NCBI GenBank assembly: GCA_028554795.2
Contig: CM068841.1
Location: forward strand, 24,733,308 to 24,797,307
DNA: 64,000 bases
Reading direction: 5' to 3'
DNA from: Sinohyriopsis cumingii
Lineage: Eukaryota > Mollusca > Bivalvia > Unionida > Unionidae
Both the position numbers and the translations under genes were made by a program. The number at the start of each line of letters is the position of its first letter. The first letter of the stretch is position 1. Of this stretch, positions 20,281 through 63,590 are shown piece after piece. The notes under the pieces are model-generated. The model saw nothing but the letters and a program-made list of their open reading frames with translations. It ran no database searches and had not been told where the DNA came from.

Positions 20281-22070
20281 ATAATAATAATAATAATGAG
20301 GACTTTGTATAGCACCTAATCTTTAGAAGCTCTAAGTGCTTTACAACATTAGACAACACCTATAACATAAAATACATATATAATGATATTATTACAGAAA
20401 ACAAACACCATGAAATTAGAAAACATAAAAACATGCTGTAAATATTTAAGGTAGGGAACATTATTAGGTCTTTAAGTTTGTTCTTGCAGTTGAAATAAGT
20501 GAGTTTTAAGAGCACTCTTGAATGGGATTAGTGTGTATTTGTGTCTAAGTTCAGTGGGCAATTCATTCCACATTGCTGGGCCCTGATATGCAAAAGAACG
20601 TTGTCCATATGACTTTGTTTTCATAGTGGGAGTAATGAGTATATGATTGTCAGAAGAGGAGCATAAATATCTTGCTGGTGTGTACACATGGGTGAGATCG
20701 GAAAGGTATGTTGGACTGGAGTCTGTCAGTGAAACGTAGAACAGAGATCAAATTTTGTATTTGATTCTGGATTGAATGGATAGCCAGTGTAGGGTACAGA
20801 GTAGCGGGGAGGTGTGCTCTGATCGTGGTACTCTAAGTATGATCCAAGCAGCTGTGTTTTGAACTTTTTTGAAGTTTCTGGAGTAGATATTGAGATGAAC
20901 CAGACATAATTGAGTTACAATAGTCCAGTCTTGAAAGTACTAATGAACATAAAAGTGTTTTAGTGGCATCAACTGAAAGATATTTGCGAATTGAGCTGAT
21001 GCATCTCAGCTCAAGATATGCAGCCTTGCATATGTTCATGATATGTTGTTGCAATGTGAGAGTACTATCCAGAGTGACACCTAGGTTTTGAACTGACTGT
21101 GTGAATTTAATGTTGGTGTTACTGTTATTTATTGTTTGAGGTAAAGGATATGACTGAGAAAGTCTTTGTGTTGTGATCAGAATAGCCTCATTTTTATCAT
21201 CATTCATCTGCAGCTTGTTAAATGTCATCCATGATTTCACATCAGAAATGCACCTCTCTACACCTTGGATGGTAGCATCAAGTTCAGTTGGGTGGCTAGA
21301 TTTGTATATTTGGGTGTCATCAGCATACAATTGGTGAGAGCAGCTGAGTGTATAGAATGAAGAGAACAGGTCCAAGAACACACCCCTGTGGAATGCCACA
21401 ACATTGATTAACTGGGCTGGAGTGTATTCCATTTGCAGACACAATTTGTGTCCTGTTGACCAAGTAAGACTTGAACCACAGTAAGGCTGTATCATGAATG
21501 CCAAATACCTGCTGGAGATGGTGAAGTAATATATCATGGTCTGTTGTGTCAAATGCTGCAGATAAATCAAGGAGGGTGAGGACTGTGATCTTTCCACTAT
21601 GCAAAGCAGAGAGAATGTCATTAACTACTTTTAGAAGAGTACTTTCAGTACTGTGGCAAAGGCAATATGCAAATTGTACATTGTTAAAAAGACTGTTTGA
21701 ATTCAGATGAGATACAAGTTGGGATAAAACAACCTTTTCTAAGATTTTTGATATGAAATGGGAGATTAGAAACTGGGCGGGCATTCTTTAAATCATTATG
21801 GTCAAGTGACGGTTTCTTCAGCAGAGGCTTCACAATGATGAGTCAATTGAAATTGTGTTGTCAAGCTTATCTCTAATGGTTTGTACTTCGTCACGGAAGA
21901 AATTTGCAAACAGGTTTGGAACGTCGACTAGAGAGAAGGTAGTTGGAAGTTGTGTACATTTGTTCCTTAACATTAGCTTGCTAGTAATCTTGAAGAGCTC
22001 TTTGCAGCTGGAATTTTCCATGATCTTAGTACTGTAGTGAGCTGATTTTGCTGCATGGACTATGTTTGCA
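20281..22070 (-). mobile_element. Non-LTR retrotransposon (CR1/L2-like LINE), 5'-truncated and decayed
   Basis: Minus-strand element with reverse transcriptase motifs: LLDLSAAFDTTDHDILLHHL (palm motif A), GIPQGCVLGPVLFILYTQLL (motif B region), HQLYADDTQIY (motif C, YADD) and the family C-terminus YGQRSFAYQGPAMWNELPTE. A, B and C are not in one frame, an upstream part at 21830-22070 is in yet another frame, and pieces are missing between them, so it is dead. The 3' end is an (ATT)n tail at 20281-20297. A 19-bp duplication 'atcaagaagggcatttata' (20262-20280, 22071-22089) brackets it, though that sequence is also the local tandem repeat unit. Confidence 0.9.
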
Positions 22071-22335
22071 ATCAAGAAGGGCATTTATATGCAATATCTG
22101 AGGATCAAGGTTTTTATATGCAATAATTGAGTATCAAGAATGTTCTTTTTAATGCAATATTTTGAGTATTAAGAAGGGCATTTATATGCAATATTTGAGT
22201 ATCATGAACACTTTAATGCAATCAAGAAGGGCATTTATATGCAATATTTGAGTATCAAGAAGGATATTTATATGCAATATTTGAGTATCAAGAAGGGCAT
22301 TTATATGCAATATTTGAGTATCAGGAATGTTCATA
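22071..22335 (+). repeat. Right part of the 33-bp tandem array
   Basis: About eight units of 'tatcaagaagggcatttata' plus 'tgcaatatttgag', somewhat diverged near the LINE. Confidence 0.93.
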
Positions 22336-27105: not shown

Positions 27106-27197
27106 TCATTGTTCCCCAACAATGTCTGGCTTCTCTGCAGTCTGATCTTCCAGTTTGTGAACCAATCCCAAGGAACCATCAAGATGGACAAGATCAC
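27106..27197 (-). CDS. PEP synthase-like, exon 12 (C-terminus and stop)
   Basis: Two bases plus 29 codons plus TGA: G-DLVHLDGSLGLVHKLEDQ then TAEKPDIVGEQ and stop. The 'GD-V-LDG--G-V--L' ending is typical of the family's last strand and helix. Acceptor tttcaaatgtcag. Confidence 0.92.
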
Positions 27198-28796: not shown

Positions 28797-31700
28797 AGTG
28801 TATAACTGAATGTATGAAGTACTGTGAGTACCAGTAAGAACATTTTACAATATACAGTTACTACTTTGCCACTGAAAGAAAATAAAAAGACAAGAAAGGG
28901 ACAAATAAGTGTATACATACCTTATTGAATTAGATGTGTGGCATGGATGTGTACACATACCTGACTGAATAATATGTGTGGCATGGATGTGTACACATAC
29001 CTGACTGAACAATATGTGTGGCATGGATGTGTACACATACCTGACTGAATAAGATGTGTGGCATGGATGTGTACACATACCTGACTGAACAATATGTGTG
29101 GCATGGATGTCTACACATACCTGACTGAATAAGTTGTGTGGCATGAATGTGTACACATACCTTACTGAAAAAGATGTTTGGCATGGATGTGTACACATAC
29201 CTGACTGAACAATATGTGTGGCATGGATGTGTACACATACCTGACTGAATAAGATGTGTGGCATGAATGTGTACACATACCTGACTGAATAATGTGTGTG
29301 GCATGGATGTGTATACATACCTGACTGAATGAGATGTGTGGAATGGAAATGTGTACACATACCTGACTGAATGAGATGTGTGGCATGGATGTGTATACAA
29401 ACCTGACTGAATAAGATGTGTGGCATGGATGTGTATGCATACCTGTCTGAATAAGATGTGTGGCATGGATGTGTATACATACCTGCCTGAATAAGATGTG
29501 TGGCATGGATGTGTATACATACCTGCCTGAATAAGGTGTGTGGCACGGATGTGTACACATACCTGACTGAATAAGATGTGTGGCATGGATGTGTACACAT
29601 ACCTTACTGAATAAGATGTGTGGCATGGATGTGTACACATACCTGTCTGAATAAGGTGTGTGGCACAGATGTGTACACATACCTGACTGAATAAGATGTG
29701 TGGCACGGATGTGTACACATACCTGACTGAAAAAGATGTGTGGCATGGATGTGTACACATACCTTACTGAATAAGATGTGTGGCATGGATGTGTACACAT
29801 ACCTGTCTGAATAAGATGTGTGGCATGGATGTGTATACATACCTGACTGAATAATATGTGTGGCCTGCGGTACATTAACAATACAAGGAAGACCATACTC
29901 TCTGGCAACTACAGCACCTGGAACAAGATACATTTTGAGTTAGGAGAGATTCCTGTTCTGAAGCAGAGTTAATTATTGCTGACAGATGAAAAGAGACGGA
30001 AAAAGGTGCAAACATAAGCAACAAGAGCTACCAGTGAATGACCCTGCTGACTACAGGTTGTTTGACAGGGCCTTAAAGAAAACAAATTCTGTAGGAAAAC
30101 CAAAGTTGGGAGAAGATGGGCATAACTCTTCTAAATGATGACATAAAATGCAGGGAATCAAACTAAATGAAGTCTCAACCATATAAAGCAGCATGCCAAA
30201 TTTGCATGATCTTAACAATGTTATGCTGTGGAAAGTAAAGTAAGGAAAGTGGCCAATCAGGCCAATGAAGGGCCATAACTCTTCTAAATGATGACATAAA
30301 ATGCAGGGAATCAAACTAAATGAAGTCTCAACCATATAAAGCAGCATGCCAAATTTGCATGATCTTAACAATGTTATGCTGTGGAAAGTAAAGTAAGGAA
30401 AGTGTCCAATCAGGCCAATGAAGGGCCATAACTCTTCTAAATGATGACATAAAATGCAGGGAATCAAACTAAATGAAGTCTCAACCATATAAAGCAGCAT
30501 GCCAAATTTGCATGATCTTAACAATGTTATGCTGTGGAAAGTAAAGTAAGGAAAGTGGCCAATCAGGCTAATGAAGGGCCATAACTCTTCTAAATGATGA
30601 CATAAAATGCAGGGAATCAAACTAAATGAAGTCTCAACCATATAAAGCAGCATGCCAAATTTGCATGATCTTAACAATGTTATGCTGTGGAAAGTAAAGT
30701 AAGGAAAGTGTCCAATCAGGCCAATGAAGGGCCATAACTCTTCTAAATGATGACATAAAATGCAGGGAATCAAACTAAATGAAGTCTCAACCATATAAAG
30801 CAGCATGCCAAATTTGCATGATCTTAACAATGTTATGCTGTGGAAAGTAAAGTAAGGAAAGTGGCCAATCAGGCCAATGAAGGGCCATAACTCTTCTAAA
30901 TGATGACATAAAATGCAGGGAATCAAACTAAATGAAGTCTCAACCATATAAAGCAGCATGCCAAATTTGCATGATCTTAACAATGTTATGCTGTGGAAAG
31001 TAAAGTAAGGAAAGTGGCCAATCAGGCCAATGAAGGGCAATAACTCTTCTAAATGATGACATAAAATGCAAGGAATCAAACTAAATCAAAATCTCAACCA
31101 TATAAAGCAGCATGCCAAATTTGCATGATCTTAACAATGTTATGCTGTGGAAAGTAAAGTAAGGAAAGTGACCAATGAGGCCAATGAAGGGCCATAACTC
31201 CTGTAAATGTGGAACTCTGGAAATCATTATCATTCAAGAACTCAATACAAAGCTGCATGCCAAATTTGAATAAGCTAAATGGTGTTTGGGCTATGCTAGA
31301 TTGCGAGCAGTATCCCATGTGAAGATATCACGGGCTATAACTTTAGTTCTCTGAGATGATGTACGCACCATAATGCATCAGAACATGTTTAATCGTTCCT
31401 GAGCTATGTTGATTACAATGAAATGGTGTGTGGAGATATGGAACTAATCAGAAAAGGGCAGCAACTCTGTCCAAAAATTGGCCCTGAACAGATGAGAACT
31501 TTAAATTGCACATCTATATGTAATAGGCAATTCGCCTAACAATGTGTGTATACATGTAGGGTCAATGACACTTATGGACAATATTGGCTACATGGTGCTG
31601 ATTACAAGTACAATTCAAAAGAAAATTAATTTATAAAACTGTAAAGATTTCTGATGATAAAGCCTCCCAAACAGACACAGACATTAAGTACTAAATGATA

Positions 31701-34700
31701 AAAATGGAAAGGTTGGTTCACCTAATAAATGGCATCCAGTTATTTATGGGGGTTGCATAGCTATTGTGATTACAGGAAGAATTAATGGACAAACAGGCTG
31801 ACATCATGCTAAAATGGTTATTATTAAAGGTCTCCTGCATCAAGATGTGGGAATTCTAATTAACAGTATCAAGAAGAAATAAACTTTAGGACTCATTGCA
31901 ACCTATTAAGTAAAAGAAATACATGTGGACAAACAAATGACTTACCATGTGAAACAAGTCCTCCCATTTCTGTCACCAGGCCTGAGATGAGAGGGAAGTA
32001 TGGGCTCCAGCCTACATCTGTATAGCATACAATCAGGATTTCTCCTTTCTATAAGGAGAAAAAGTACTGCTATAGACTGGTGTTAGAACATTATAGGAAC
32101 TAAATATCTGTTACTGTTACAAATTATTATAAACTCAGTACATTTTTCAAATTTACTGTAGAAACTTCTAGAGTGACTCATTAGCAATCAATCATAGCAT
32201 ACTGTACTACTAAAGTGAATATTTTAAACCATTGAAAAGTTAGCGATTTATAAGAGTTTCCTATCTGACAACAAGAGACTAATTAATCAGCTAATGCTCA
32301 CTCTATTTACTTTGTCTCACCTGCTTTAGTAAACAATGAGACATCAGTAATACTTACATAATAGTGTGACTAATTGCAGTATTAACAGCACTCGGCCACC
32401 AAGTTAAGTTTTTTGGAAAAATCACACAATATACCATCTTTTATTTAAATATCTAGAACTTAAAAATAAATTTCTTTCTATGTTATGTGTACTGATGCAC
32501 CTAGCAAGTTCAGTTCTGGTCAGTGGCAGGTTATATTGTCAGGGCTGTGTATTGCAAGTACAATTCTAATCAGAAGTGGGCTATATTGTCCAGGCTGTTT
32601 ATTGATGCACCCAGCAAGTACAATTCTGATCAGAAGTGGGCTATATTGTCTAGGCTGTGTACTGACGCATCCAGCAAGTTCAATTCTGATCAGAAGTGGG
32701 CTATATTGTCCAGGCTGTTTATTGATGCACCCAGCAAGTACAATTCTGATCAGAAGTGGGCTATATTGTCCAGGCTGTGTATTGATGCACCCAGCAAGTT
32801 CAATTCTGATCAGAAGTGGGCTATATTGTCCAGGCTGTGTATTGATGAACCCAGCAAGTTCAATTCTGATCAGAAGTGGGCTAGGTAAATTAGGTTATAT
32901 TAAAGTATTGCTTGCAGGTTAAAAAAAACACTAATATTAGTGTTTAGTTTTACAAATAAACAATTCTAGTTGCAGTTTTTATGTTTATTTTCATTATCTT
33001 TGTAAAACTAGGCCTATCTGATACATGTCAGTGTGTACAGAATACTTCCCACACACAATAATATCATTACATTAAAAGATTGTATATTGTGTGATTTTTC
33101 CAAAAAACCTTAACTTGGTGGATGAGTGCTGCTAATACTGCAATTCAGCAATCTAGGGACAAATTTACACACTGTGGCAGATAATCTTGTTGCTAATCTG
33201 TTTAAATGAACAAAAAGTACTCACAAAATCACTTAGAGACCAAAAGGTGTCAGTTGTCTTTAAAACTGTATTTTGAACCCTGACAATGACCCAGAATATA
33301 ATAATATATGCAGCAGCTAAGTGATGTGAGTTCTAATATCAAGCATGCTTCCCATAATGCAATGTACCATGATCAAAATGGGATACTTACTACCAAACCC
33401 CAAAATGACAACCTTAATATATGCCCATAACATGTTGTATATATCAAAGGTAAACTGTCTTGCTTACAACTCGTGTAAATATATCTTTGGGGCAGTTTAT
33501 ACTGCACATTGTCTTACAGGCAATTAATGAGTAAGTCAATCAGGTAAATACATCTTTGGGGCAGTTTATCCAGCAAATTGTCTCAATGGCAATTAAAGCA
33601 TAAGTCAATCAGGTAAGTGCATGAACATTTCACATCTGACTTATCTGGCTGACAACAGCTAGAGTTGTGTCCTCCTGAGTGTGCTTTATGAAAGCCCATT
33701 ATGTTAATCTGCATATTAACCAAGTGGAACAAACCAATTCAATTGAAGTTAGGTAAATCAAAGCAATGACTGTTGAAGAATAACAGTTTTTAAACATCAT
33801 TGCCTTGAAATTAATGAGAACATTTAAGCCATCTTTATTAAAGATTTTTGTAAAGTTTGTGAACAGCAGCAATTTTTCTTTGAAGTCAGATTTCACTACA
33901 TATATAAAATACAAAACAAATGTATCAGTAGTCAGACTAGTGCTTAAGTGTCATTCATTCTTGAAAGAAAAAGATCAAAACACAGCTGTGAGTCAGGAGA
34001 CATTGATCCATTAGCAAAGTGAGTTCACCAAATTTCAGAAGGCCTGGTTGATGGAGTAAAGCACAACAGCAAGGGGGAACATTTCATTCCTTGAAGATAC
34101 TACAGATACCATATCAACGTTAATCATTTTGGAGTGTATGATATCCATTGACATAGCAGCATCACCTGTAGGTAACAATGGGTTCAGCCAGAACATATTA
34201 GATATGCTGAATTGGACATTCAGCTTATTTCTCATCTTGATCTTGTTAAATACCATCTATTAATCAAGTGATGCTTTACATAATGATTCAGCCATCAAAT
34301 TGATTGAAAGACAATAATTACCCCATGCTCGTGTTTATACAGCTGATTTTTGTTGATAAAAAGATTCTGTTAACACTTGTACTGGATGGATGTGCTTATT
34401 ACTCTTTATTACTGCCGTATTAGGCTCCCATAAAACTTGAAAACATTATATTCCTTCCCCAACCCCCAATGAAATAGTCCATCCCTAATGTGATGTATAA
34501 TTTCTATAGAGAAAAGCATATCTGGTGGTCTAAATGCAACAGTCACAGATCTGACAATGACAGCATTAATGATTGGCAGGAAGAACTAATTTCTGACTAG
34601 GATTCACTCGGGAAATCAAGCAGGGATGTTTGAATAACAGCACCATCTTATCCCTAACTAGTACCATCTTGTCAACAAATGACACTTGCATTTTCTTCAA

Positions 34701-37700
34701 ACCCCTACTGAACTACTGACAGCAGCAAAGACTGCATCTAAATGAGACTACATTCCACTAGCCAATGACTTTAAAGGCAGAAAATTGGTGTATTTTTTAT
34801 TTTTTATGTAATGTCAGTATGGTTGAGATTATGTAAGTGTTTGCATATACATGTACATGTATGTGTGTGGTGATGATATCTGACAATGCTAAAATCTACA
34901 AACTATATTTTTTGTTGCAAGTGTGTTAAATGCTTTCAAGAAAACAGATTTAAATGCACACACATTTTCTTTAGGCTTATGGAACTCTTGTTTTTATTAC
35001 AGAGTCAGAGATAGTGTTTCATGGAACTCTTGTTTTTATTACAGAGTCAGTGGTAGTATTTCAGGGAACTCTTGTTTTTATTACAAAGTCAGTGATAGTG
35101 TTTCATGGAACTCTTGTTTTTATTACAGAGTCAGTGGTAGTATTTCAGGGAACTCTTGTTTTTATTACAGAGTCAGTGGTAGTGTTTCATGGAACTCTTG
35201 TTTTTATTACAGAGTCAGTGGTAGTGTTTCAGGGAACTCTTGTTTTTATTACAGAGTCAGTGGTAGTATTTCAGGGAACTCTTGTTTTTATTACAGAGTC
35301 AGTGGTAGTGTTTCATGGAATTCTTGTTTTTATTACAGAATCAGTGATAGTGTTTCATGGAACTCTTGTTTTTATTACAAAGTCAGTGGTAGTGTTTCAT
35401 GGAATTCTTGTTTTTATTACAGAGTCAGTGGTAGTGTTTCATGGAATTCTTGTTTTTATTACAGAGTCAGTGATAGTGTTTCATGGAACTCTTGTTTTTA
35501 TTACAGAGTCAGTGGTAGTGTTTCATGGAATTCTTGTTTTTATTACAGAGTCAGTGATAGTGTTTCATGGAACTCTTGTTTTTATTACAGAGTCAGAGAT
35601 AGTGTTTCATGGAACTCTTGTTTTTATTACAGAGTCAGTGGTAGTATTTCAGGGAACTCTTGTTTTTATTACAGAGTCAGTAATAGTGTTTCATGGAACT
35701 CTCGTTTTTATTACAGAGTCAGTGGTAGTATTTCAGGGAACTCTTGTTTTTATTACAGAGTCAGAGATAGTGTTTCATGGAACTCTTGTTTTTATTACAG
35801 AGTCAGTGGTAGTATTTCAGGGAACTCTTGTTTTTATTACAGAGTCAGTGGTAGTGTTTCATGGAATTCTTGTTTTTATTACAAAGTCAGTGATAGTGTT
35901 TCATGGAACTCTTGTTTTTATTACAAAGTCAGTGATAGTGTTTCATGGAACTCTTGTTTTTATTACAGAGTCAGTGGTAGTGTTTCATGGAACTCTTGTT
36001 TTTATTACAGAGTCAGTGGTAGTATTTCAGGGAACTCTTGTTTTTATTACAAAGTCAGTGGTAGTGTTTCATGGAACTCTTGTTTTTATTACAGAGTCAG
36101 TGATAGTGTTTCATGGAACTCTTGCTTTTATTTCAGAGTCAGTGGTAGTGTTTAGTGTTTCATGGAACTCTTGTTTTTATTACAGAGTCAGTGGTAGTGT
36201 TTCATGGAATTCTTGTTTTTATTAGAGCTGATTACACTGTTACGAAGCTCTAGTTTTTATTACAGAGTTGGTTATAGTGTTTCAGTGTGTTCTCATTTTA
36301 TTACCTGAACACGAGGCAAATGATAGGGTACAAACTATAATAATTTTTATTGAAATGTGACTTGGTATAAATGGTTTTTGCTAACAGAGAGTCACTCTAA
36401 ATTCCTGCAAACCATTGTTTCAGTTAATAATTCTCTGTTTACACTGAGGAAGCTTTAACATAAATCACTAACAAGATCTACCGGAAGAGACTGACACTCC
36501 ACTGACTGTAAACAATATCCTGAATTCAAAATACAACCATTTATTCTTTTTAGCTACTAAGTACTGAAGCCATCTTTGAATAGAAGATTGACACCATTTT
36601 TGGACCATCTAGACATTATTAGAAGTCTTCTGGTGAAAAACATTTCAAAAACTGCGAACATAAAATTCGAGCATGGCTGAGTGGCAGAGGTGCAGTGGCA
36701 CACAAAGTGAAAAGGTGAAGCAGAACATAGTGCAATCTGGTGTTCTTTGGTTATATTTGGGAATATAAAAGTCCTTAATATAAATGCATGTTGTACATAT
36801 TTTATTTTGACTTACCCTCATGCGGGGCCCCGAGTGGCCGAGTGGTCTAAAGCGCTCACCGTTCCGGATCACTACCATCTCACCTCTGTCTGCGTGGGTT
36901 TGAGTCCAAAGCTCGGCTAGCGTGGGTACGTGGGAAAGCCTGCCAGTAGCTTCTCGTGGGTCGGTGGTTCTTACCTGGGTTTTCCAGGGTTCTTCCTCCA
37001 CCATTAATACTGGCCGCCATGTATAGCCTATCTTGTGCTGAAAAATGGCGTTAAACCCTAGAACAACAACAACAACAACAACAACAACTTACCCTCATAC
37101 CACTTTGTTTATAGAGATGAATCTAGTGGTACCCTAAGTGGCACTTTTGGCTTTCATTAGCACTGCATCTAATAGTCCTGCAATACATCTACCCTGATAT
37201 GTTGACAACTTACTGCCTAAATAAACAGCATTGTGTAGTATGTTCCCCAGTTGACTGATGAGAGGCCAAATTTTCAGGAATATCTTGCACACTTGGCAGC
37301 CCATACCAACACTTTTCCACAAATTAAAGTCTAATTGCCTTAGTCATCCTATACTTACTCTGAGGTCTTTTTCCTAATGAATTCTAATTCTGACACAGGC
37401 AAATCAACATGTTTTCAAGTTCCACTGACACATTTCAGCCAGGCAAGAAATGTCCAAGTCAACTGAAGCTAAAGTATGTTTCTTTAATGAAACAAAAATA
37501 TACTGAAGAAAGCAATTAGATAGTTTTTTTTTTATTGAAGATACTTATCATCCCCATAACTGATTTCAACATTTCTGCGTTCCATTGCATTCCAGCAAAC
37601 AGAAATGTAGGAATTAGTTAATATTCTACTAATAGAAGTGAGGGCTATCCTTCTGCTCCATGACTCTGATGTTTATCTAATGGACAGACACATTATGGAG

Positions 37701-40700
37701 GAAATATGTCTTCTTCATGATAAAAATAACACAAAACGATTTCATGCATTTCTGAAAGGTTGAGATATTGGAGTCTTTCATGTTTTGATCAGAGCTCTTT
37801 CTCAGAAGGATTGCCTAATTCTCTGAGCTGCTCCAACCAAATCAGAGGAATTGGCATCTCAGCAAAATATGGCCCTCCATTCAGCAGTAGCTAAAACAAG
37901 CAAGCAGATTGGCATCATTTTCAATCAACTAGATACCTGATGAAATTCCATGTCAATAAGACTTTCTAAGTACCAGCTTATGTGACTCTGTGAATAACTG
38001 TGTCTGAGAAAATGACCTAAACACCAAGCACAGTGCTGATATCAGATGGTTGGATGAACGGATGAACAAACATCATCAATCCATAAGCTGGGGTAACACT
38101 GAAATCCAACCAAAGTTCATGGAACACAAATACCCTGCCACAGTGACCTAAACAAAAAACAACACATGACAGACAGACACATAATTTGACAATGGTATTT
38201 TGATATGCCTGCCACATTCCTGGAGGCACATACAAACAGCTTGGCCTTAATCCAATAATGTAATAACAAAACTGTAAGACAGTCAATAACAAACCTGTAA
38301 GACAGTTAATAACAAAACTGTAAGACAGTCGAAATCAAACCTGTAAGACATTCAATAACAAACCTGAATTTTATTGGCTTCCTCCAAGGAATGGACAACT
38401 CTGGCTTGTCCTTGCACTGACCCCTGACTCACAGGCATACCTAAAAACAAAGATGAACAACAATGTCCTAAATCATCTGTCTCTCTCTCTCAAGGATGGA
38501 AGTGTACATTATTCCGACATTAATGACTATTATTTATTTTTCATAGGAATAGTGACTGTGCATATAATAATAATCTTCACAGGAATAATCTTCATAGGAA
38601 TAGCAACTGTGCATATAAGAATAATCTTCATAAGAATAATCTTCATAGGAATAGCAACTGTGCATATAAGAATAATCTTCCAAGGAATAGCAACTGTGCA
38701 TAGAAGAATAATCTTCATAGGAATAGTGACTGTGCATATAAGAATAATCTTCACAGGAATAGCAACTGTGAATAGAAGAATAATCTTCATAGGAATAGTG
38801 ACTGTGCATATAAGAATAATCTTCATAGGAATAGCAACTGTGCATATAAGAATAATCTTCATAGGAATAGCAACTGTGCATATAAGAATAATCTTCATAG
38901 GAATAGCAACTGTGCATATAAGAATAATCTTCATAGGAATAGCAACTGTGCATATAAGAATAATCTTCCAAGGAATAGCAACTGTGCATATAAGAATAAT
39001 CTTCATAGGAATAGTGATTGTACATAGAAGAATAATCTTCCAAGGAACAGCAACTGTGCAAGAATAATCTTCATAGGAATAGTGACTGTGCATATAAGAA
39101 TAATCTTCATAGGAATAATCTTCCAAGGAATAGCAACTGTGCATATAAGAATAATCTTCATAGGAATAGCAACTGTGTATATAAGAATAATCTTCATAGG
39201 AATAGTGATTGTGCATATAAGAATAATCTTCATAGGAATAGTGACTGTGCATATAAGAATAATCTTCATAGGAATAATCTTCATAGGAATAGCAACTGTG
39301 CATATAAGAATAATCTTCCAAGGAATAGCAACTGTGCATATAAGAATAATCTTCAGAGGAATAGCAACTGTGTATATAAGAATAATCTTCATAGGAATAG
39401 CAACTGTGCATAGAAGAATAATCTTCATAGGAATAGTGATTGTGCATATAAGAATAATCTTCATAGGAATAGTGATTGTGCATATAAGAATAATCTTCAT
39501 AGGAATAGTGATTGTGCATATAAGAATAATCTTCATAGGAATAGCAACTGTGTATATAAGAATAATCTTCATAGGAATAGTGACTGTGTATATAAGAATA
39601 ATCTTCATAGGATTAGCAACTGTGCATATAAGAATAATCTTCAGAGGAATAGCAACTGTGTATATAAGAATAATCTTCATAGGAATAGCAACTGTGCATA
39701 GAAGAATAATCTTCATAGGAATAGTGATTGTGCATATAAGAATAATCTTCATAGGAATAGTGATTGTGCATATAAGAATAATCTTCATAGGAATAGTGAT
39801 TGTGCATATAAGAATAATCTTCATAGGAATAGCAACTGTGCATATAAGAATAATCTTCCAAGGAATAGCAACTGTGCATATAAGAATAATCTTCATAGGA
39901 ATAGTGATTGTGCATATAAGAATAATCTTCATAGGAATAGTGATTGTGCATATAAGAATAATCTTCATAGGAATAGCAACTGTGTATATAAGAATAATCT
40001 TCATAGGAATAGTGACTGTGTATATAAGAATAATCTTCATAGGATTAGCAACTGTGCATAGAAGAATAATCTTCACAGGAATAGCAACTGTGCATATAAG
40101 AATAATCTTCATAGGAATAGTGATTGTGCATATAAGAATAATCTTCATAGGAATAGCAACTGTGTATATAAGAATAATCTTCATAGGAATAGTGATTGTG
40201 AATAGAAGAATAATCTTCATAGGATTAGCAACTGTGCATATAAGAATAATCTTCATAGGAATAGCAACTGTGCATATAAGAATAATCTTCATAGGAATAG
40301 TGATTGTGCATAGAAGAATAATCTTCCAAGGAATAGCAACTGTGCATATAAGAATAATCTTCCAAGGAATAGCAACTGTGTATATAAGAATAATCTTCAT
40401 AGGAATAGCAACTGTGCATATAAGAATAATCTTCCAAGGAAAAGCAACTGTGTATATAAGAATAATCTTCATAGGAATAGTGATTGTGCATATAAGAATA
40501 ATCTTCATAGGAATAGCAACTGTGCATATAAGAATAATCTTCATAGGAATAATCTTCATAGGAATAGCAATTGTGCATATAAGAATAATCTTCATAGGAA
40601 TAGTGATTGTGCATATAAGAATAATCTTCATAGGAATAGCAACTGTGTATATAAGAATAATCTTCATAGGAATAGTGATTGTGCATAGAAGAATAATCTT

Positions 40701-57882: not shown

Positions 57883-60876
57883 CATTATTATCATTATTAT
57901 TATTATTAGAAGCAATATTAATTTAATAATAATTGAAATGAAAGATAAAAAAGTCAGATTTTATAATTATGCCTGCCTGGTGAATTCATAAACAAAAAAT
58001 GTTTGAACTCTATTGTTAATTTTTCTCCCTCTGTTCACTATTTCTGTGATGAGTTATTACCTTTTTATTCATAAAATCCCAGGGTCATATGCAGAGGACA
58101 TTATTTATAGGTCTAACCTGCTTCCAAAATCCTCACTTAGTTGAAATAATAGAATAAATAAAATTAATAATAATAATAATAATGAGGACTTTTTATAGCA
58201 CCTAATCTTTAGAAGCTCTAAGTGCTTTAACAAAAGTAGACAACACCTATAACATAAAAAACATATATAATGATATGATTACAAAAACAAACACCATGAA
58301 ATCAGAAAACATAAAAAAATATATAACAAAACATGCTGAAAATACTTAAGGTAGGAAACATTATTAGGTCTTTAAGTTTTTTCTTGCAGTCTAAATAAGT
58401 GAGTTTTAAGAGCACTCTTGAATGGGATCACTGTGTCTTTGTGTCTAAGTTCAGTGGGTAATTCATTCCACGATGCTGGGCCCTGGCATGCAAAAGAACG
58501 CTGTCCATATGACTTTGTTTTCATAGTGGGAATAATGAGTATACGATTGTCAGAAGAGGAGCATAAGTATCTTGCTGGTGTGTACACATGGGTGAGGTCG
58601 GAAAGGTATGTTGGACTGGAGTCCATCAGTGAAACGTAGCGCAGAGAACAAATTTTGTGTTTGATCCTGGATCGAATGGATAGCCAGTGTAGGGTACAGA
58701 GCAGCGGGGAGGTGTGCTCTGATTGTGGTACTCTAAGTATGATCCGAGTAGCTGTGTTTTGAACTTTTTGAAGTTTCTGGAGTAGATACTGAGATGAACC
58801 AAACAGAATTTAGTTACGATAGTCCAGTCATGAAAGTACTAATGAACACACAAGTGTTTTAGTGGCATCAACTGAAAGATATTTGCGAATGGAGCTGATG
58901 CGTCTCAGCTCAAGATATGCAGCCCTGCATATGTTCATGACATGTTGGTGCAATGTGAGAGTACTGTCCAGAGTAACACCTAAGTTTCGTACTGATTGTA
59001 TGAATTTGATGTTGGTGTTGCTGATATTTATTGTTTAAGGTAAAGGATGTGAATGAGAAAGTCTTTGTGTTGTGATCAGAATGGCCTCTGTTTTATCATC
59101 ATAACCGACATCTTCTTAGGCATTGGAAAGTACACATTGAATTGCAAGACATTAGAAATAAATATGTTATTCAAGTCATGTGCTCATCATGTGACACATG
59201 CCTTATTCATATTTGTACACGGTCATTATCTGAATGTCATAAAAATGAAGTGGACTAAAATTACTTAGTTAAAAGTGGACGTTTAATCAGAGTTTGCAAT
59301 TTTGAAAAATCCATTGTAGTTCTGTCTCAAGAGACCAAAAACAAAGTTATGCAGAAGGACATGTGTAGTGGGTAGAATAATCTTTAAGACGTCAGGACAG
59401 GAAATCAGAAAAGGGGAGGATCAATTCTTAAGTCTATGAAGAGATTATGTGAAGTATGTCTGTCTCAGATTAAACTTAAAATGTGTTCTAAGGAGATGAA
59501 AATAAAGGCTTTCATTTTATGAAAGGTACATGACACCATAAAATTATTTCCATCCTTAAATAATGTCCGCAGTCCAAGATACCACTTTAAATTTAGTTAG
59601 CCCTTAATCGTTCAAATACTGTGTCTTATCATCAGTAGAACATACAATCATGAATGCAAAATCGATAATTTCTTAATAACTTAATAAAATTCCATATTTA
59701 GGTAAATTTCTTTCAGTGTATAATCTACATTTAACCTGTTTTGAATGCAAAATCTGTATAAATTTGTTTTATATGTGACATCTGTAAAATCTACATTTAA
59801 CTTGTTTTGCATGTGATATCTGTATGATCTACATTTAACTTGTTTTGCATGTGATATCTGTATGATCTACATTAAACTCGTTTTGTATGTGATATCTGTA
59901 TGATCTACATTTAACTTGTTTTGCATGTAATATCTGTACGATCTACACTTAACTTGTTTTTCATGTGATATCTGTATATCTACATTTAACTTGTTTTGCA
60001 TGTGATATCTGTATGATCTACATTTAACTTGTTTTGCATGTGATATCTGTATGATCTACATTTAACTTGTTTTGCATGTGATATCTGTATGATCTACAAT
60101 AAACTTGTTTTGTATGTGATATCTGTATGATCTACATTTAACTTGTTTTGCATGTGATATCTGTATGATCTATATTAAACTTGTTTTGTATATGATATCT
60201 GTATCTGGTGGAGCCAATAACATCAGTAATAATTCTGTCAGAATATTACTCAACAAAATAATATAACTTCCCGTGCCACAGCCTGCTTGGTAATAATTAG
60301 TCATCCCTTATACATAAATGTTTTGCATGCCATCTTATAATCTATGAGTTCAATATACTTTATTACTATAATAATTCCACCATAGTTACATTGATAGCTT
60401 ACAAAAATAATGTCCAAGTAGTATAATTTATGCTAAGGGGGGGGCGGGGAATGAAGAATAATATTAAATTACTGTACCGAGAAATGATAATGTGAATATT
60501 ATTCATAATAAGCATATTATAATGAACCCCTGTATAATTCTATTCTGACCCTACCCACTGTTAAAAGGGAATCTCTCCCCAAAGCATTTATACACTAATA
60601 AACATGCAAGATGTGCACAAGCATAACAAATATTTACATATTTCTCCTTCTCATTCTAACAAGGCAGCTTTCTGTCTTAGATGTATATACACAGGCTGAC
60701 ACACAAAACAATGCACAGATACTCATGGGAAGAGAAAACAAATCTCCACACAATTTAATTTGCAAAGATAATACAATGGGAGAAAAGTAAAAGACCAAAC
60801 TCTCATACACACAGATACACAAAAGTGACTATGTGTGTACACATGCACACATGCATGAACACACACACACACACAC

Positions 60877-60912
<36 letters not shown>

Positions 60913-63013
60913 CGTATCAAGTAGATTAGCTGTACCTTTAAAACATGAATCAAATTCTCTGGTTCCCTCCTCCAGGACTTGGTGATGAACTCTGCCTGTA
61001 AATAAAAGTAAGGAAAATATATTAGGCCCCCAACTAACACAATAAAGCAAGGTTTTTATCCTAGCTATATAAGTCTGCATATTTACTAGGTAAAGCAAGT
61101 TGTTGATTCCAAATTTGCTTTTCTCTGGCCACCTCACCATACCATATTGCATATGTGAATGAACCTTTGACCTTTATAGCTCAATATTTGATTGGTCACT
61201 GAGAAGAGTCAAGATAAGCAATGTGTTGACATGTTTCAGGCAAAGAAACTGAATCAAAATGCATAAAGAAATTGCTATTGCATTAAAAGTTGAAGCCACT
61301 CATTTTCATTTTAAATATTTAATCCACAGTTGCCTGTGAATAGATCCTTCATTCAGCATAGTCTATGTTTTATGATAGCTAACTGGGTCAATATAAACTT
61401 TGCCGTTGGGACAAGTTCCTTGTGTTCCACTCGCCTATGAATAACAGTACTTGATCACTTTGTGAATACACACAGAAGCATATCACTGAATACACACTGA
61501 ATTAGACTTGGACACTAAGCTGTTTGTTTGGAGTCTCAAAGGCATGATTAAAACCTGGACGATTATGATGCCTGTATCATAAGTTTGTGTTCTGCAGTGT
61601 TCAGAAAATAACCCCCCCCCATTGATTATAAAAACACACAAAAAATTTCAGAACTGAGATTAATATACCCAATTTATTAAATTCATATTTACATTACTGA
61701 AACAGCCAAGGTTTGTCAACCTTTATTGTTGAAAACAAGCCTGTTCTGTTTAAAAATTTTAAACCTAAAACACTATGTCTCATTAGAGCATTTCATTATA
61801 AACATACATGTAGTTCCTGTTATAAGGCTAATATGCTCAAAATTACCATTTTATTAAGTGATAGTAAATGTATGCACATCATGTACTTCTATAAGGTAAT
61901 ATACACTATAAAGTGGTATACACCATAAGGTGGTATACACAATAAGTTGGTTTACACTATAAGGTGGTATACACTACAAGGTGGTATACACTACAAGGTG
62001 GTATACACTACAAGGTGGTATACACAATAAGTCAGTTTACACAATAAGGTAGTATACACAATAGGGTAGTAGAGACTATAAGGCAGTATACACTATAAGG
62101 TGGTATACACTACAAGGCAGTATACACAATAAGTCAGTTTACACAATAGCGTAGTAGAGACTATAAGGTGGTATACACTATAATGTTGTATACACTACAA
62201 GGTGGTTTACATAATAAGTCAGTTTACACTATAAGGTGGTATACACAATAGGGTAGTAGAGACTATAAGGTGGTATACACTACATGGTGGTATACACTAC
62301 AAGGTGGTATACACCATTAGTCAGTTTACGCTATAAGGTGGTATACGCAATTGGGTAGTAGAGACTGTAAGGTGGTATACACCATAAGGTGGTTTACACT
62401 TTAAGGTGGTATACACATTATGGTCGTATAGCCTTGAAGGTGGAATACACTATAACGTGGTATGCATTAAAAGGTAGTATACACTACAACTCCAATGAAC
62501 AACCTTACAATGATGAGTTCTGTACAACTTCCACAAAGTTTATGTACAGAGTAGTCTGAGTAACTGCTACAGCCTGATCACTCAAACCTCTGCAGAATCT
62601 GGTGAATCAATTCTCAAGTCAACAAGGTTTATTAACAGTCATTTAGTCAGGTTAGAAATACCAGTTTGAGAGTTACCCAAATGTCCAAATCATGTTTGAG
62701 GCAACACGATTCTGCTGTGTGTACTGTAAAATCTGGATAATAACTGCATACTTGAAAATCAGCACATGCAGCAAATAAACCTATACGGAAAATAAATGTG
62801 CTGAACAGAAGATATGTGTACACAAAAATCAAGTGTAAACAAGTGCACACAAGCCTTCCAGTATTTTCTAAACAAAAATAGGTGCATATTCATGTTTAAA
62901 AAGGAAACAAATACCTCTTTGATACATCTATGGCCATGTCGCTCAATGAAAGTCCCATATTTCTGCCTCACTTCTGGAGGACACTCATCACTTGTTAAAA
63001 GCTGCACACACTC
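27106..63013 (-). CDS. PEP synthase / rifampicin phosphotransferase-like enzyme, 3' part of gene (12 exons)
   Basis: Twelve GT...AG exons with matching phases give 322 codons and a TGA at 27106-27108. Seen motifs, in local residues: HGHRCIKEAEF (about 26-36); LLFFLTQEEIGKL in exon 6; GMPVSQGSVQGQARVV (208-223); TDVGWSPYFPLISGLVTEMGG; and SHGAVVAREYGLP with His267, the residue that carries phosphate in this family. These match the C-terminal half of bacterial-type PEP synthases and rifampicin phosphotransferases (PPDK_N ATP-grasp domain followed by a swivelling PEP-utilizers domain), in which ATP phosphorylates the His and the phosphate moves to or from the second substrate. The ATP-grasp domain would lie upstream, outside the window. 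Introns range from 0.8 to 6.3 kb, most with their own tandem repeat. The substrate in animals is unknown to me. A bacterial origin by transfer is inference. The join of exons was made by eye. Confidence 0.9.
27198..28758. other. Last intron of the PEP synthase-like gene, unique part
   Basis: No further exon or repeat recognised. Confidence 0.6.
28759..28793 (+). repeat. (CA)n microsatellite
   Basis: About 17 CA units followed by GAGAGTG. Confidence 0.97.
28918..29862 (-). repeat. 40-bp array made of exon end plus 5' splice site, about 23 copies
   Basis: On the minus strand each unit reads gccacacatcttattcagtc then ag|gtatgtgtacacatccat. The first 22 nt equal the last 22 nt of exon 11 (gccacacatattattcagtc-ag, coding ATHIIQS-G), followed by the same GTATGT donor. 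The unit nearest the exon includes the real border. Units differ by one to three bases and one has a 2-nt insertion (near 29345). All three minus frames stay open for long stretches (250-276 codons). Confidence 0.97.
29843..29917 (-). CDS. PEP synthase-like, exon 11
   Basis: Two bases, 24 codons, one base: G-AVVAREYGLPCIVNVPQATH then IIQS-G. It completes the SHGAVVAREYGLP signature. Its last 22 nt and its donor (CAG TCA G|gtatgt) are the seed of the 40-bp array that fills the next 925 nt of intron. Acceptor cttgttccag. Confidence 0.94.
30100..31200 (+). repeat. Tandem array, 153-bp unit, 7 copies
   Basis: 'gggccataactcttctaaat' recurs every 153 nt, the inner units virtually identical and the outermost diverged. 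A 342-codon minus frame comes from the period being 3 x 51. 31200-31560 carries more distant relatives ('gggcagcaactctg'). Confidence 0.97.
31946..32048 (-). CDS. PEP synthase-like, exon 10 (catalytic His)
   Basis: 34 codons plus one base: KGEILIVCYTDVGWSPYFPL followed by ISGLVTEMGGLVSH-G. The catalytic His codon CAT is at 31947-31949, the last full codon before the donor gtaagt. Acceptor ccttatag. Confidence 0.95.
32372..33145. mobile_element. Inverted-repeat element with an internal minisatellite
   Basis: Arms of about 75 nt: 'aattgcagtattaacagcac...ttttttggaaaaatcacacaatata' (32372-32450) pairs with the complement of 33068-33145. Between them lies the 60-bp array at 32500-32884. It resembles the non-autonomous bivalve elements that carry core tandem repeats. 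No transposase. Confidence 0.75.
32500..32884 (+). repeat. Tandem array, 60-bp unit, about 6 copies
   Basis: 'caattctgatcagaagtggg' recurs every 60 nt. Units alternate gtgtat/gtttat and acgcat/gcaccc variants. Confidence 0.97.
33462..33612 (+). repeat. Tandem duplication, about 71-bp unit, 2 copies
   Basis: 'atctttggggcagtttat' and 'taagtcaatcaggtaa' occur twice in order. Confidence 0.9.
33790..34975 (+). repeat. Longer copy of the segment at 1-840
   Basis: See the matches given for 1-840. This copy lies in the intron between exons 9 and 10 and runs straight into a 42-bp array. Confidence 0.6.
34976..36290 (+). repeat. Tandem array, 42-bp unit, about 30 copies, each with an acceptor-like motif
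   Basis: Unit: ggaactcttgtttttattac then agagtcagtggtagtgtttcat. 'cttgtttttattacag' is a good 3' splice-site match on the plus strand, antisense to the surrounding gene. Variants: ggtagta/gatagtg, atgg/aggg. Both 400-codon open frames are by-products of the 42-nt period. Confidence 0.97.
36810..37098 (+). mobile_element. Full-length tRNA-derived SINE with 12-bp target duplication
   Basis: Body 36822-37086. The head is tRNA-like, with A box 'gtggccgagtggtctaaagc' and B box 'gggtttgagtcc'. The middle has 'ttcctccaccattaatactg' and the tail 'ggcgttaaacccta' then (AAC)n. A perfect duplication 'acttaccctcat' at 36810-36821 and 37087-37098 marks it as the youngest and most complete copy of four in the window. 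Confidence 0.95.
37099..38275. other. Intron sequence, unique
   Basis: Part of the intron between exons 9 and 10. No exon or repeat seen. Confidence 0.5.
38276..38363 (-). repeat. 23-bp array at the donor of exon 9, 4-5 copies
   Basis: On the minus strand the donor CAG|gtttgttattgaatgtctta is followed by cag|gtttgatttcgactgtctta, then cag and further copies. Each unit recreates ACAG(G)TTTGTTATT, so the exon border is the first repeat edge. Confidence 0.9.
38364..38440 (-). CDS. PEP synthase-like, exon 9 (start of phosphohistidine domain)
   Basis: Two bases plus 25 codons: GMPVSQGSVQGQARVVHSLE then EANKIQ. It opens the PEP-utilizers mobile domain (G-x-P-V-S-x-G...GxARVV). Acceptor tgtttttag, donor CAG|gtttgt. 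The donor is followed by four or five more copies of a 23-nt sequence ending ttacag(g)ttt. Confidence 0.94.
38545..42055 (+). repeat. Large tandem array, 36-bp unit, about 95 copies
   Basis: Unit: aagaataatcttcataggaa then tagcaactgtgcatat. Variants (caactg/tgattg/tgactg; catat/tatat/catag; cataggaat/ccaaggaat; 15-nt extended units) recur in blocks, for example 39330-39620 like 39630-40030 and 40220-40480 like 40700-40960, which shows amplification of multi-unit blocks. It fills most of the intron between exons 8 and 9. Confidence 0.98.
42465..42662. mobile_element. Hairpin MITE, 198 bp
   Basis: Arms of about 75 nt: 'tactcacttttaagtccagt...agaccctgatatgccatca' against the complement of 'gatggcaaatcagggtctat...ggacatgtaagtgagta'. 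Flanking TA on both sides hints at a TA target. Relatives at 43880-44040 and 51360-51500. Confidence 0.8.
43010..43480 (+). repeat. Tandem array, 44-bp unit, with degenerate 5' part
   Basis: Four close copies of 'tctcagcatccttacatcca' plus 'tgtctccctatgatcataca' at 43260-43440, preceded by diverged 'catgtctcagcatgcttata' pieces from 43010. Confidence 0.92.
43773..43824 (-). CDS. PEP synthase-like, exon 8
   Basis: 17 codons plus one base: IKQDDQQHERKTKFTLK-G, a hydrophilic linker. It is the least conserved piece; its support is the phase fit on both sides. Acceptor ccattgcag, donor AAAG|gtaagc. Confidence 0.8.
43880..44040. mobile_element. Relative of the hairpin MITE
   Basis: Inverted arms around 'aaatcagggtctat' (43943-43956) and 'tagaccctgatcttt' (43998-44012), with outer 'tatgcatc' / 'gatgcatg'. 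More diverged than the 42465 copy. Confidence 0.55.
44245..46665 (+). repeat. Tandem array, 68-bp unit, about 36 copies
   Basis: 'ccatatttactagacctcta' recurs every 67-68 nt. Subtypes (tatatag/acatag, ggcctac/ggcttac, catcat/cattat with ttcacc/tccacc) alternate in patches, and the left edge is diverged. In the intron between exons 7 and 8. Confidence 0.98.
46666..47395 (+). repeat. Diverged modules, about 130-150 bp
   Basis: Repeated order of 'gacctt-ac', 'taggcttcttcctta(c)cccaa', 'cacaaac(t)ttgg' and 'gtacatggtc'; continues weakly at 47690-47960 beyond the SINE. Confidence 0.55.
47400..47592 (-). mobile_element. tRNA-derived SINE, second family
   Basis: Minus strand: A box 'ggtggctcagtggttgg', B-box-like 'gggcttgaattc', then a body with 'caggtgccttggcac'. 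Same head type as 48815-49002 and 63865-64000. Confidence 0.65.
48006..48240 (-). mobile_element. SINE (GTTAAACCC-AAC family), diverged
   Basis: Minus-strand copy with 'ggtttaatgccattttttca', 'cacatgataggctatacatg' and 'aagctttctcacatacccat'. The tail is nearly lost and the head decayed. Confidence 0.75.
48432..48510 (-). CDS. PEP synthase-like, exon 7
   Basis: One base plus 26 codons: AVRRRKIFHLQEEIQFPKMT then VGIPVP. It forms the linker (basic RRRR helix, 'FP...VG-P-P') just before the swivelling domain. Acceptor catgtttcag, donor CCT|gtatgt. Confidence 0.9.
48815..49002 (-). mobile_element. tRNA-derived SINE, second family
   Basis: Minus strand: A box 'ttggttcagtggttaag', B box 'gtttgattctc', then 'cttgccttggcacattataa'. 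Between exons 6 and 7 lie 48511-49341, where this and a TG run at 48670-48690 are the only features. Confidence 0.65.
49208..49300 (+). repeat. Short tandem repeat, 'aggtgaaaaggcagaaa'
   Basis: Four copies in two larger blocks that begin 'aatagtgaggtgaaa', just downstream of the exon 6 donor on the minus strand. Confidence 0.9.
49342..49433 (-). CDS. PEP synthase-like, exon 6
   Basis: 30 codons plus two bases: GRLPEEELLFFLTQEEIGKL followed by IQTRSAKLIA. This is one of the best conserved blocks of the family. Acceptor tactacacag, donor AA|gtaaag. Confidence 0.92.
50667..50738 (-). CDS. PEP synthase-like, exon 5
   Basis: 24 codons, phase 0: STAIRMVDKFKEAYWKLAEL followed by MVLE. Acceptor tgcatttag (the nearer tctacag breaks the frame), donor GAG|gtgagt. 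Confidence 0.87.
50840..51205 (+). repeat. Diverged tandem repeat, about 80 bp, 4-5 copies
   Basis: 'tggctgc', 'tgtgtctttctgaaa', 'aaccaa--ttccatctactg' and 'tatatggcct' recur in order. Confidence 0.85.
51360..51500. mobile_element. Distant relative of the hairpin MITE
   Basis: Carries 'gcagatctgggtctatgcag' and 'gatcctgatctgcc' in opposite sense, as in the 42465 element. Arms are decayed. Confidence 0.4.
51840..53460 (+). repeat. Diverged modules, about 110 bp, interrupted by an insertion
   Basis: 'tctagtgaaagatttt', 'tgatgtgagcagtaa', 'tggaactatcaa' and 'ggaggtaaccaca' recur at 51840-51970 and again at 52835-53460 in the same order, around the block 51974-52828. Confidence 0.7.
51974..52828. 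mobile_element. Possible solo LTR (fossil)
   Basis: An 855-nt block interrupts the module array. It begins TGTTACGC and ends GACGTAACA, an LTR-like TG...CA pair with inverted ends, and has an AATAAA near its right end (52744). No coding part, and the target duplication is not clear. Confidence 0.4.
53624..53690 (-). CDS. PEP synthase-like, exon 4
   Basis: One base plus 22 codons: FLLKKFIVPKARKAVGEREW then GK. The basic helix resembles the family's LLP-RAR-AV-xRE segment. Acceptor atatttccag, donor AAG|gtaaga. Confidence 0.88.
54590..57240 (+). repeat. Modular repeat rich in 'tgaccttgacctt', about 120 bp modules
   Basis: Modules run 'atattgag(c/t)(c/t)atgaccttgac', 'aatgtggtac', 'caccttctagtgatgatgta' and 'ataccaa(c/g)ttt-atccctta', then 'aatctcaaatggc'. 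At least ten degenerate copies. A LINE fragment (55243-55500) sits inside. Confidence 0.75.
55243..55500 (-). mobile_element. LINE 3' fragment (same family as 20281-22070)
   Basis: (ATT)n tail, then the same 3' untranslated sequence, ending at 'ttaagtttgttcttgcag'. Strongly 5'-truncated, with A-rich expansion inside. Confidence 0.85.
57550..57650 (-). CDS. PEP synthase-like, exon 3
   Basis: 33 codons plus two bases, starting TILKTRAYDHVQQEGIS and ending SFFG-R across the border. The acceptor ttcttttctag was chosen over a nearer AG because only it keeps phase 0 with exon 2. Donor GGCAG|gtaatg. Confidence 0.85.
57843..57910 (+). repeat. (ATT)n microsatellite with ATC interruptions
   Basis: About 22 trinucleotide units. 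Downstream of exon 3, in its following sequence on the plus side. Confidence 0.95.
58165..59103 (-). mobile_element. LINE 3' half (same family as 20281-22070), 5'-truncated
   Basis: Collinear with the first copy from the (ATT)n tail to just before YADD. The frame at 58372-58626 keeps YGQRSFACQGPASWNELPTE-LRH and ends at the same place. Upstream coding parts are interrupted. It lies in the intron between exons 2 and 3. Confidence 0.9.
59720..60205 (+). repeat. Tandem array, 38-bp unit, about 12 copies
   Basis: 'gatctacatttaacttgttt' plus 'tgcatgtgatatctgtat' every 38 nt, the left edge diverged. Confidence 0.96.
60856..60910 (+). repeat. (CA)n microsatellite beside the exon 2 donor
   Basis: About 25 CA units, one CG, ending 25 nt from the donor at 60935. 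Confidence 0.97.
60936..60995 (-). CDS. PEP synthase-like, exon 2
   Basis: 20 codons, phase 0 at both ends: AEFITKSWRREPENLIHVLK. Acceptor cttttatttacag, donor AAG|gtacag. A CA/GT dinucleotide array starts about 25 nt past the donor. Confidence 0.9.
60996..61889. other. Intron between exons 1 and 2, unique part
   Basis: No exon or repeat seen apart from a short C run near 61612. Confidence 0.55.
61890..62490 (+). repeat. Irregular array of a 16-18 bp unit
   Basis: 'aaggtggtatacactata' and variants ('aagtcagtttacacaa', 'gggtagtagagactat') about 34 times. The latter two recur in fixed order, so there is a larger composite period. Confidence 0.95.
62915..63013 (-). CDS. PEP synthase-like, exon 1 of the visible twelve
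   Basis: 33 codons, phase 0 at both ends, acceptor tttccacag and donor GAG|gtattt. It encodes ECVQLLTSDECPPEV...YGTFIERHGHRCIKE. The HGHR block continues into exon 2 as CIKE-AEF, a conserved stretch of the family. The acceptor abuts a tandem array with no AG for 570 nt upstream. Confidence 0.92.
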
Positions 63014-63590
63014 CTGTGGAAATATCAGCAATGTGGAAAATATCAGTATTGTGGAACATGTCAGCAATGTGGAACATATCAGCAATATGGAATATATTAG
63101 CAATGTGGAATATATCAGCAAAGTGGAAATATCAGCATTGTGGAAGATATCAGCAATGTGGAACATATCAGCCATGTGGAACATAGCATTGTGGAACATA
63201 TCAGCAAAGTGGAAATATCAGCATTGTGAAACATATCAGCAATGTGGAACATATCAGCCATGTGGAACATAGCAATGTGGAATATATCAGCAAAGTGGAA
63301 ATATCAGCATTGTGGAAGATATCAGCAATGTGAAACATATCAGCCATGTGGAACATAGCATTGTGGAACATATCAGCAATGTGGAAGTATCAGCATTGTG
63401 GAACATATCAGCATTGTGGAACATATCATTGTGGAAATATCAGCATTGTGGAACATATCAGCAATGTGGAAATATCAGATTGTGGAACATATCAGCAATG
63501 TTGAAATATCAGTAATGTGAAACATAGCAAGGTGCAAGATATCAGCAATGTAGAAAATGTCAGCATTGTGGAAAGTATAAGTATTCTATA
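63014..63590 (+). repeat. Irregular array of a 15-20 bp unit abutting the exon 1 acceptor
   Basis: 'atcagcaatgtggaacat' and variants about 30 times. On the coding (minus) strand the last unit reads tgatatttccacag, that is the acceptor itself. No AG on that strand from 63585 to 63016. Confidence 0.95.

Follow-up and report, generated by a model that had tools for sequence, protein, structure and literature searches.

A 40-nucleotide minisatellite across the exon 11 donor of a phosphoenolpyruvate-synthase-like gene is probably a passive, mirage-type array

Minisatellites that carry splice signals across exon-intron boundaries are known from amphioxus, where they are called mirages, and from human genes. 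The amphioxus mirage paper credits Canestro et al. 2002, and Turri et al. 1995 are said to have reported a minisatellite with multiple splice donors in human IFI6 (6-16). The variable number tandem repeat (VNTR) of human CBS has an effect on splicing. Here we analyze a 40-nucleotide (nt) minisatellite at the donor of exon 11 in a phosphoenolpyruvate (PEP)-synthase-like gene of Sinohyriopsis cumingii, on the minus strand of a 64,000-nt stretch (G000:C18:24733308-24797307; hereafter the window) of a 2.9-Gb genome in 1138 contigs. Judged from its sequence and that of a second gene copy, the array is probably a passive mirage-type minisatellite whose native donor is used. It looks like a member of the already described kind represented by the amphioxus mirages, IFI6, and CBS, with no new splicing device.

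As far as the accessible portions of PMC3087553 go, the amphioxus mirages of Adh3 and of the globin genes BflGb6 and BflGb9 are, like the present array, minisatellites of variable copy number across an exon-intron boundary. They affect 5' and 3' boundaries alike, differ in copy number between haplotypes, and left regular splicing undisturbed as assayed by reverse transcription-PCR (RT-PCR). Apart from lying in other genes, they differ in their units, with 6 or 3 units of 150-160 nt in BflGb6 and units of 10-72 bp in Adh3, in contrast to a 40-nt unit with 24 donors here. Minisatellite units also provide splice donors in human IFI6, again in another gene and with another unit, according to the available part of PMC4526556. 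Whereas splicing was checked by RT-PCR in amphioxus and use in RNA is reported for IFI6, the present array and its donors are described here from DNA sequence. The human CBS VNTR, of 31 bp, is named c.1444_1467+7(16_21) in the accessible text of PMC2630376, and the name places the repeat across a donor with 24 exon nt and 7 intron nt in 16-21 copies; it differs from our array in its 31-nt unit and in being a known polymorphism in people. Boundary repeats in duplicated genes, as here, are described in the available part of PMC2812944, where human genes duplicated recently (in segmental duplications) carry variable repeats at their exon-intron boundaries that are said to make novel introns, whereas here an existing intron is lengthened. 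Finally, the intron gain model of PMC4974935, which also appears in PMC3087553 (both seen in excerpt), likewise begins with a tandem duplication carrying splice signals, in that case AGGT proto-splice sites, but the new intron is absent here. No literature search was aimed at the PEP-synthase-like gene family, and we therefore do not claim the array as unpublished.

With the array cut at the exon/intron junction, each unit consists of 22 nt of the end of exon 11 followed by 18 nt of the start of the intron, and 24 donors, 23 of them downstream of the native one, succeed one another at 40-nt spacing except for a single 42-nt step (Table 1). GT is present at 24/24 junctions and GTATGT at 22/24, the other two reading GTATGC and GTTTGT; the 22 comprise 18 CAG/GTATGT and 4 AAG/GTATGT (the slash marks the junction). 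By a simple count against CAG/GTAAGT, 22/24 donors score 8 of 9, equal to the native donor. An earlier note on this DNA had described about 23 units of 40 nt, each with an intact GTATGT; the 23 repeat units, their 22- plus 18-nt composition, and the 40-nt spacing are borne out, but the hexamer is not intact at every junction and one step is longer. The overlap with exon 11 is exactly 22 nt, GCCACACATATTATTCAGTCAG (ATHIIQS-G), at 29864-29843, which forms the first exon-like half. This 22-mer recurs intact one time, at 28982-28961, and has no match outside the array at up to 6 mismatches on the minus strand of the window. Individual units differ by substitutions of their own. Thus, as in mirages, the array spans an exon-intron boundary, and its units combine an exon-like part, a splice signal, and an intron-like part.

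The gene model was built from stop-free stretches and tblastn with bacterial homologs, with exon numbering kept from the earlier note; it lacks some exons in two intervals, one lying between exons 7 and 9 and the other running from the upstream exons to exon 5. Exons 7, 9, 10, and 11 were placed by tblastn, and exon 12 weakly. Exons 9-12, when joined, match PF00391 (PEP-utilising enzyme, mobile domain) at 77.2 bits, which passes the curated cut-off of 23.1 (E 7.4e-22), and also match PEP synthases of known structure (best 5fbs, E 4.1e-28). Exon 10 ends in GGLVSHG, which we take to be the catalytic histidine motif. Because bacterial PEP-synthase-like proteins align across exon 11 without a gap, exon 11 has not been lengthened, indicating that the array derives from an ancestral exon. 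This alignment supports the earlier proposal that the end of exon 11 with its donor was the seed and that amplification ran from the exon into the intron.

Table 1. Positions in the window of the exons, tandem arrays, and signals discussed in the text
Feature	Position	Strand	Sequence or basis
40-nt minisatellite	28909..29864	-	Tandem Repeats Finder (TRF): period 40, 23.9 copies, 91% matches, score 1572
Native 5' splice site GTATGT	29837..29842	-	In frame with exon 12
Sole 42-nt unit (unit 13), disrupts the every-third-donor frame rule	29321..29362	-	Junction-cut spacing
In-frame TAA in unit 6, closes the exon 11 read-through and the products of donor +6 or later	29604..29606	-	Translation
Exon 11, array seed	29843..29917	-	GAVVAREYGLPCIVNVPQATHIIQS-G; gapless tblastn, PF00391 match of exons 9-12, junction read
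Exon 12 with stop codon	27106..27197	-	Acceptor ..TCAG/GTGATC; GDLVHLDGSLGLVHKLEDQTAEKPDIVGEQ
Exon 10	31946..32048	-	Ends ..GGLVSHG; tblastn with bacterial homologs
Exon 9	38364..38440	-	GMPVSQGSVQGQARVVHSLEEANKIQ; tblastn with bacterial homologs
Second boundary array, at exon 9 donor	38262..38366	-	TRF: 23-nt unit, 4.6 copies; includes last 3 exon nt
Upstream exon	62915..63013	-	ECVQLLTSDECPPEVRQKYGTFIERHGHRCIKE
Third boundary array, up to acceptor of upstream exon	63015..63578	-	TRF: 18-nt unit, 32.7 copies

A genome-wide DNA search, limited to scoring its best candidates and skipping very common words, returned the array in the window and at C17:78628293-78630021. A weak match on C16 (68-69%) has a different tandem unit, of 33 nt, and was set aside. 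The gene copy on C17 is collinear with most of window positions 24.8-64 kb, in blocks mostly 87-94% identical and one block 76% identical. The paralog array (L019 226-1822) begins 22 nt inside exon 11, like the window array, and has 40.8 copies with 78% matches, so that copy number is unstable between the two gene copies (23.9 versus 40.8). The earlier note had held that related species lacking the exon-like half in their repeats, together with cDNA confined to the donor at 29842, would leave passive slippage; the paralog retains this half, in a more diverged array, and so does not count against the note's reading in this respect. Across exons 5, 6, 7, 9, 10, 11, and 12, the paralog and the window gene differ at 9 synonymous and 9 nonsynonymous positions, giving proportions of 0.066 for synonymous (pS) and 0.020 for nonsynonymous differences (pN), with no amino-acid changes in exons 5, 9, 10, and 11. 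Two further upstream exons, outside this count, have identities of 93.9% (33 residues) and 100% (20 residues). Judged from pS and pN, coding constraint persists in the seven exons compared, and therefore the 23 or ~40 extra copies appear to be tolerated.

For every one of the 24 donors in the window, we translated the sequence spliced to exon 12. The normal C terminus is preserved by donors 0 and +3, the latter adding 40 residues, whereas for donors +1 and +4 the first complete codon in exon 12 is a stop, donors +2 and +5 lead into an alternative 43-residue tail through exon 12, and all donors from +6 onward end at the in-frame TAA inside the array. For the paralog, in which 27 junctions including the native one were found by pattern, donor 0 works, donor +1 stops in exon 12, and the remaining 25 stop inside the array; a normal-end open product was obtained from 0/26 of the detected downstream donors, and the alternative frame of paralog exon 12 contains a stop. 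The sole tested donor yielding a normal protein in both gene copies is donor 0. The suggestion that every third donor would add multiples of 40 residues largely does not hold up, as only +3 is usable before the TAA, and in one gene copy only. The related suggestion of C-terminal length variants retains donor +3, open with a normal end, but is weak overall, with none of the 26 downstream donors detected in the paralog keeping that end.

Taken together, these comparisons make a passive origin probable, in which a 40-bp block joining the last 22 nt of exon 11 to the first 18 nt of the intron would have been tandemly duplicated and then expanded, presumably via slippage or unequal exchange. The expansion would have preceded the gene duplication because the array position is common to both copies, and copy number would afterwards have changed independently in each gene copy. 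The exon 11 copy remains under protein-level selection, and the downstream copies would stay intronic while the spliceosome mainly picks the first donor, which on translation gives the normal frame into exon 12. Occasional use of a later donor would result mostly in truncated messages or messages prone to nonsense-mediated decay, an expected noise. With its 24 donors, the locus extends boundary-spanning minisatellites to another large animal genome; such arrays occupy matching sites in the two paralogs, in which the exons compared remain constrained, and one gene carries both donor and acceptor versions. It would also lend itself to a natural experiment on donor choice by the spliceosome when two dozen nearly identical sites are offered; we found no usable passage on choice among equal donors in the literature searched.

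Several observations weigh against a passive array with its native donor in use. Sequence by itself leaves use of the first donor unexplained, because the downstream donors score equal to the native one (22/24 counting the native donor). In the accessible portions of the cited papers, repeat splice signals of mirages are considered possible cryptic sites (PMC3087553), and in human IFI6 two downstream units of the repeat serve as donors (PMC4526556). Exon 12 (27106-27197), the next exon after the array, holds 5/9 of the nonsynonymous differences on 70/454 of the nonsynonymous sites, an excess that could mean that our reading of exon 12 is unreliable. Minisatellites also lie closer to splice sites than expected in this gene, with 3/13 arrays within 25 nt of one versus 0.32 expected (P 0.0035; post hoc, one gene). 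Finally, the donor ranks 4th of 40 circular 9-nt windows in the window array when these are ordered from the least divergent. It ranks 16th of 40 in the paralog on the same scale, so that any preferential keeping of donors is weakly indicated at best in the window array and not indicated in the paralog. Divergence of CAG/GTATGT from the consensus is 0.028 versus 0.054 in other columns for the window array and 0.096 versus 0.119 for the paralog array, in which the G of GT is missing from 7/41 junctions (in 2 through a gap) and the T is present at all 41. The donor columns of the paralog are thus ordinary, which speaks for the passive reading.

The placement of the arrays bears on the possibility that minisatellites are born preferentially at splice sites through a mutational bias. 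This explanation, which we consider doubtful, concerns origin and is compatible with the passive reading. Two other arrays in the gene adjoin splice sites. The unit of the array at the exon 9 donor, GTTTGTTATTGACTGTCTTACAG, runs from GT to AG, and this 23-nt array is present in the paralog too (L018 2530-2634). The 18-nt array at the acceptor of the upstream exon also has a paralog counterpart, at L025 8609-8811 with 11.6 copies and the exon starting from 8813. The placement test was an exact calculation on 13 hand-picked TRF arrays and 17 known splice sites, of which a few are 1-2 nt off; this list of sites is incomplete because some exons were not located. Arrays with periods below 15 nt and rows of about 2 copies (27564, 33475, 51982, and 53055) were omitted, and arrays at 49209 (2.2 copies) and 55333 (2.7 copies) were retained despite few copies. 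Besides the three arrays within 25 nt, 2/13 lay within 10 nt (0.134 expected, P 0.0077; post hoc) and 2/13 within 3 nt (0.045 expected, P 0.0009; post hoc). Favoring a bias as well, the arrangement recurs at a kinesin exon of an unrelated gene: at L064 1-128 (C13), a 44-nt repeat begins with the last nucleotides of the exon and the donor, ..CAAATAAG/GTAATG.., with the donor repeated at least 3 times. However, the placement test is post hoc and covers one gene with arrays picked by hand, and the kinesin exon accounts for the only array of score 50 or more among 64 edges (32 exons), about the ~0.85 edges expected from array density by arithmetic from a 150-kb sample.

The kinesin sample took 32 of 122 matches listed, stop-free and from the top of the list with 4 stop-free ones skipped; exon edges were alignment edges, not proven splice sites, and because flanks were 120 nt, the sample would miss long-period arrays. 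Short repeats scoring 35-38, reported at the low TRF threshold used, were left uncounted: L060 at an edge (1.9 copies), L062 18 nt off an edge (2.2 copies), L045 within an exon, and L066 in a flank. The 150 kb of sequence, from 15 contigs, contained 39 minisatellite arrays covering 16.6 kb, or 11%, a content that roughly predicts boundary arrays; plausibly, these are a by-product of a minisatellite-rich genome. A further point against a birth bias is that donor motifs were not enriched in repeat units, with 1/28 in the window (shuffle mean 0.75) and 0/39 in the 150 kb elsewhere (shuffle mean 1.0), and we dropped the idea of a general enrichment, which these shuffle comparisons do not support. 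An extension of the bias, a lineage in which many genes carry competing donor or acceptor arrays whose length tunes splicing, would fit the three arrays of this gene, but we regard it as improbable.

It is also unlikely that the array is a working alternative-splicing module in which several donors are used to make C-terminal variants (the normal end, a version with 40 additional residues, a 43-residue tail, and a truncation after exon 11). The single simple consensus score shared by 22/24 donors, the open 43-residue frame from +2 and +5, the 40 residues added from +3, and the precedent of two downstream repeat donors used in IFI6 (PMC4526556, as far as accessible) would all fit such a module. 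Yet only +3 among the 23 downstream donors reaches the normal end, with those from +6 onward stopped in the array, and the paralog has lost part of its donor sites, reaches the normal end from 0/26 detected downstream donors, and has a stop in its alternative exon 12 frame. We consider it very improbable that the array serves to bind many U1 small nuclear ribonucleoproteins, as a local U1 sink or as intron protection from premature cleavage and polyadenylation; the window array would present 24 U1-complementary sites inside 1 kb, but in the paralog the donor sites are kept no better than other parts of the unit. Misassembly is common in tandem arrays and the copy number is possibly off, but an assembly artefact is scarcely credible given units with individual substitutions and the same array, at another length, in the paralog.

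Some minor features of the window and genome were also observed. The consensus unit of the exon 9 donor array, running from GT to TTACAG, resembles tiny GT-AG blocks, and TT replaces GT in some copies. The 18-nt units of the acceptor array contain CTGAT, which in our view resembles a branch-point motif. An intronic minisatellite at 34979-36224 has 29.5 copies, and its paralog counterpart (L018 4395-4550) has 3.7. By eye, minus-strand pieces at 20472-22084 and 58375-59034 look like fragments of a reverse transcriptase from an element without long terminal repeats (non-LTR). Elsewhere in the genome, kinase-like reading frames that closely resemble one another occur by the dozen, mostly at ~7.7-kb spacing, in G000:C2:2639849-2792380, C193, and C603.
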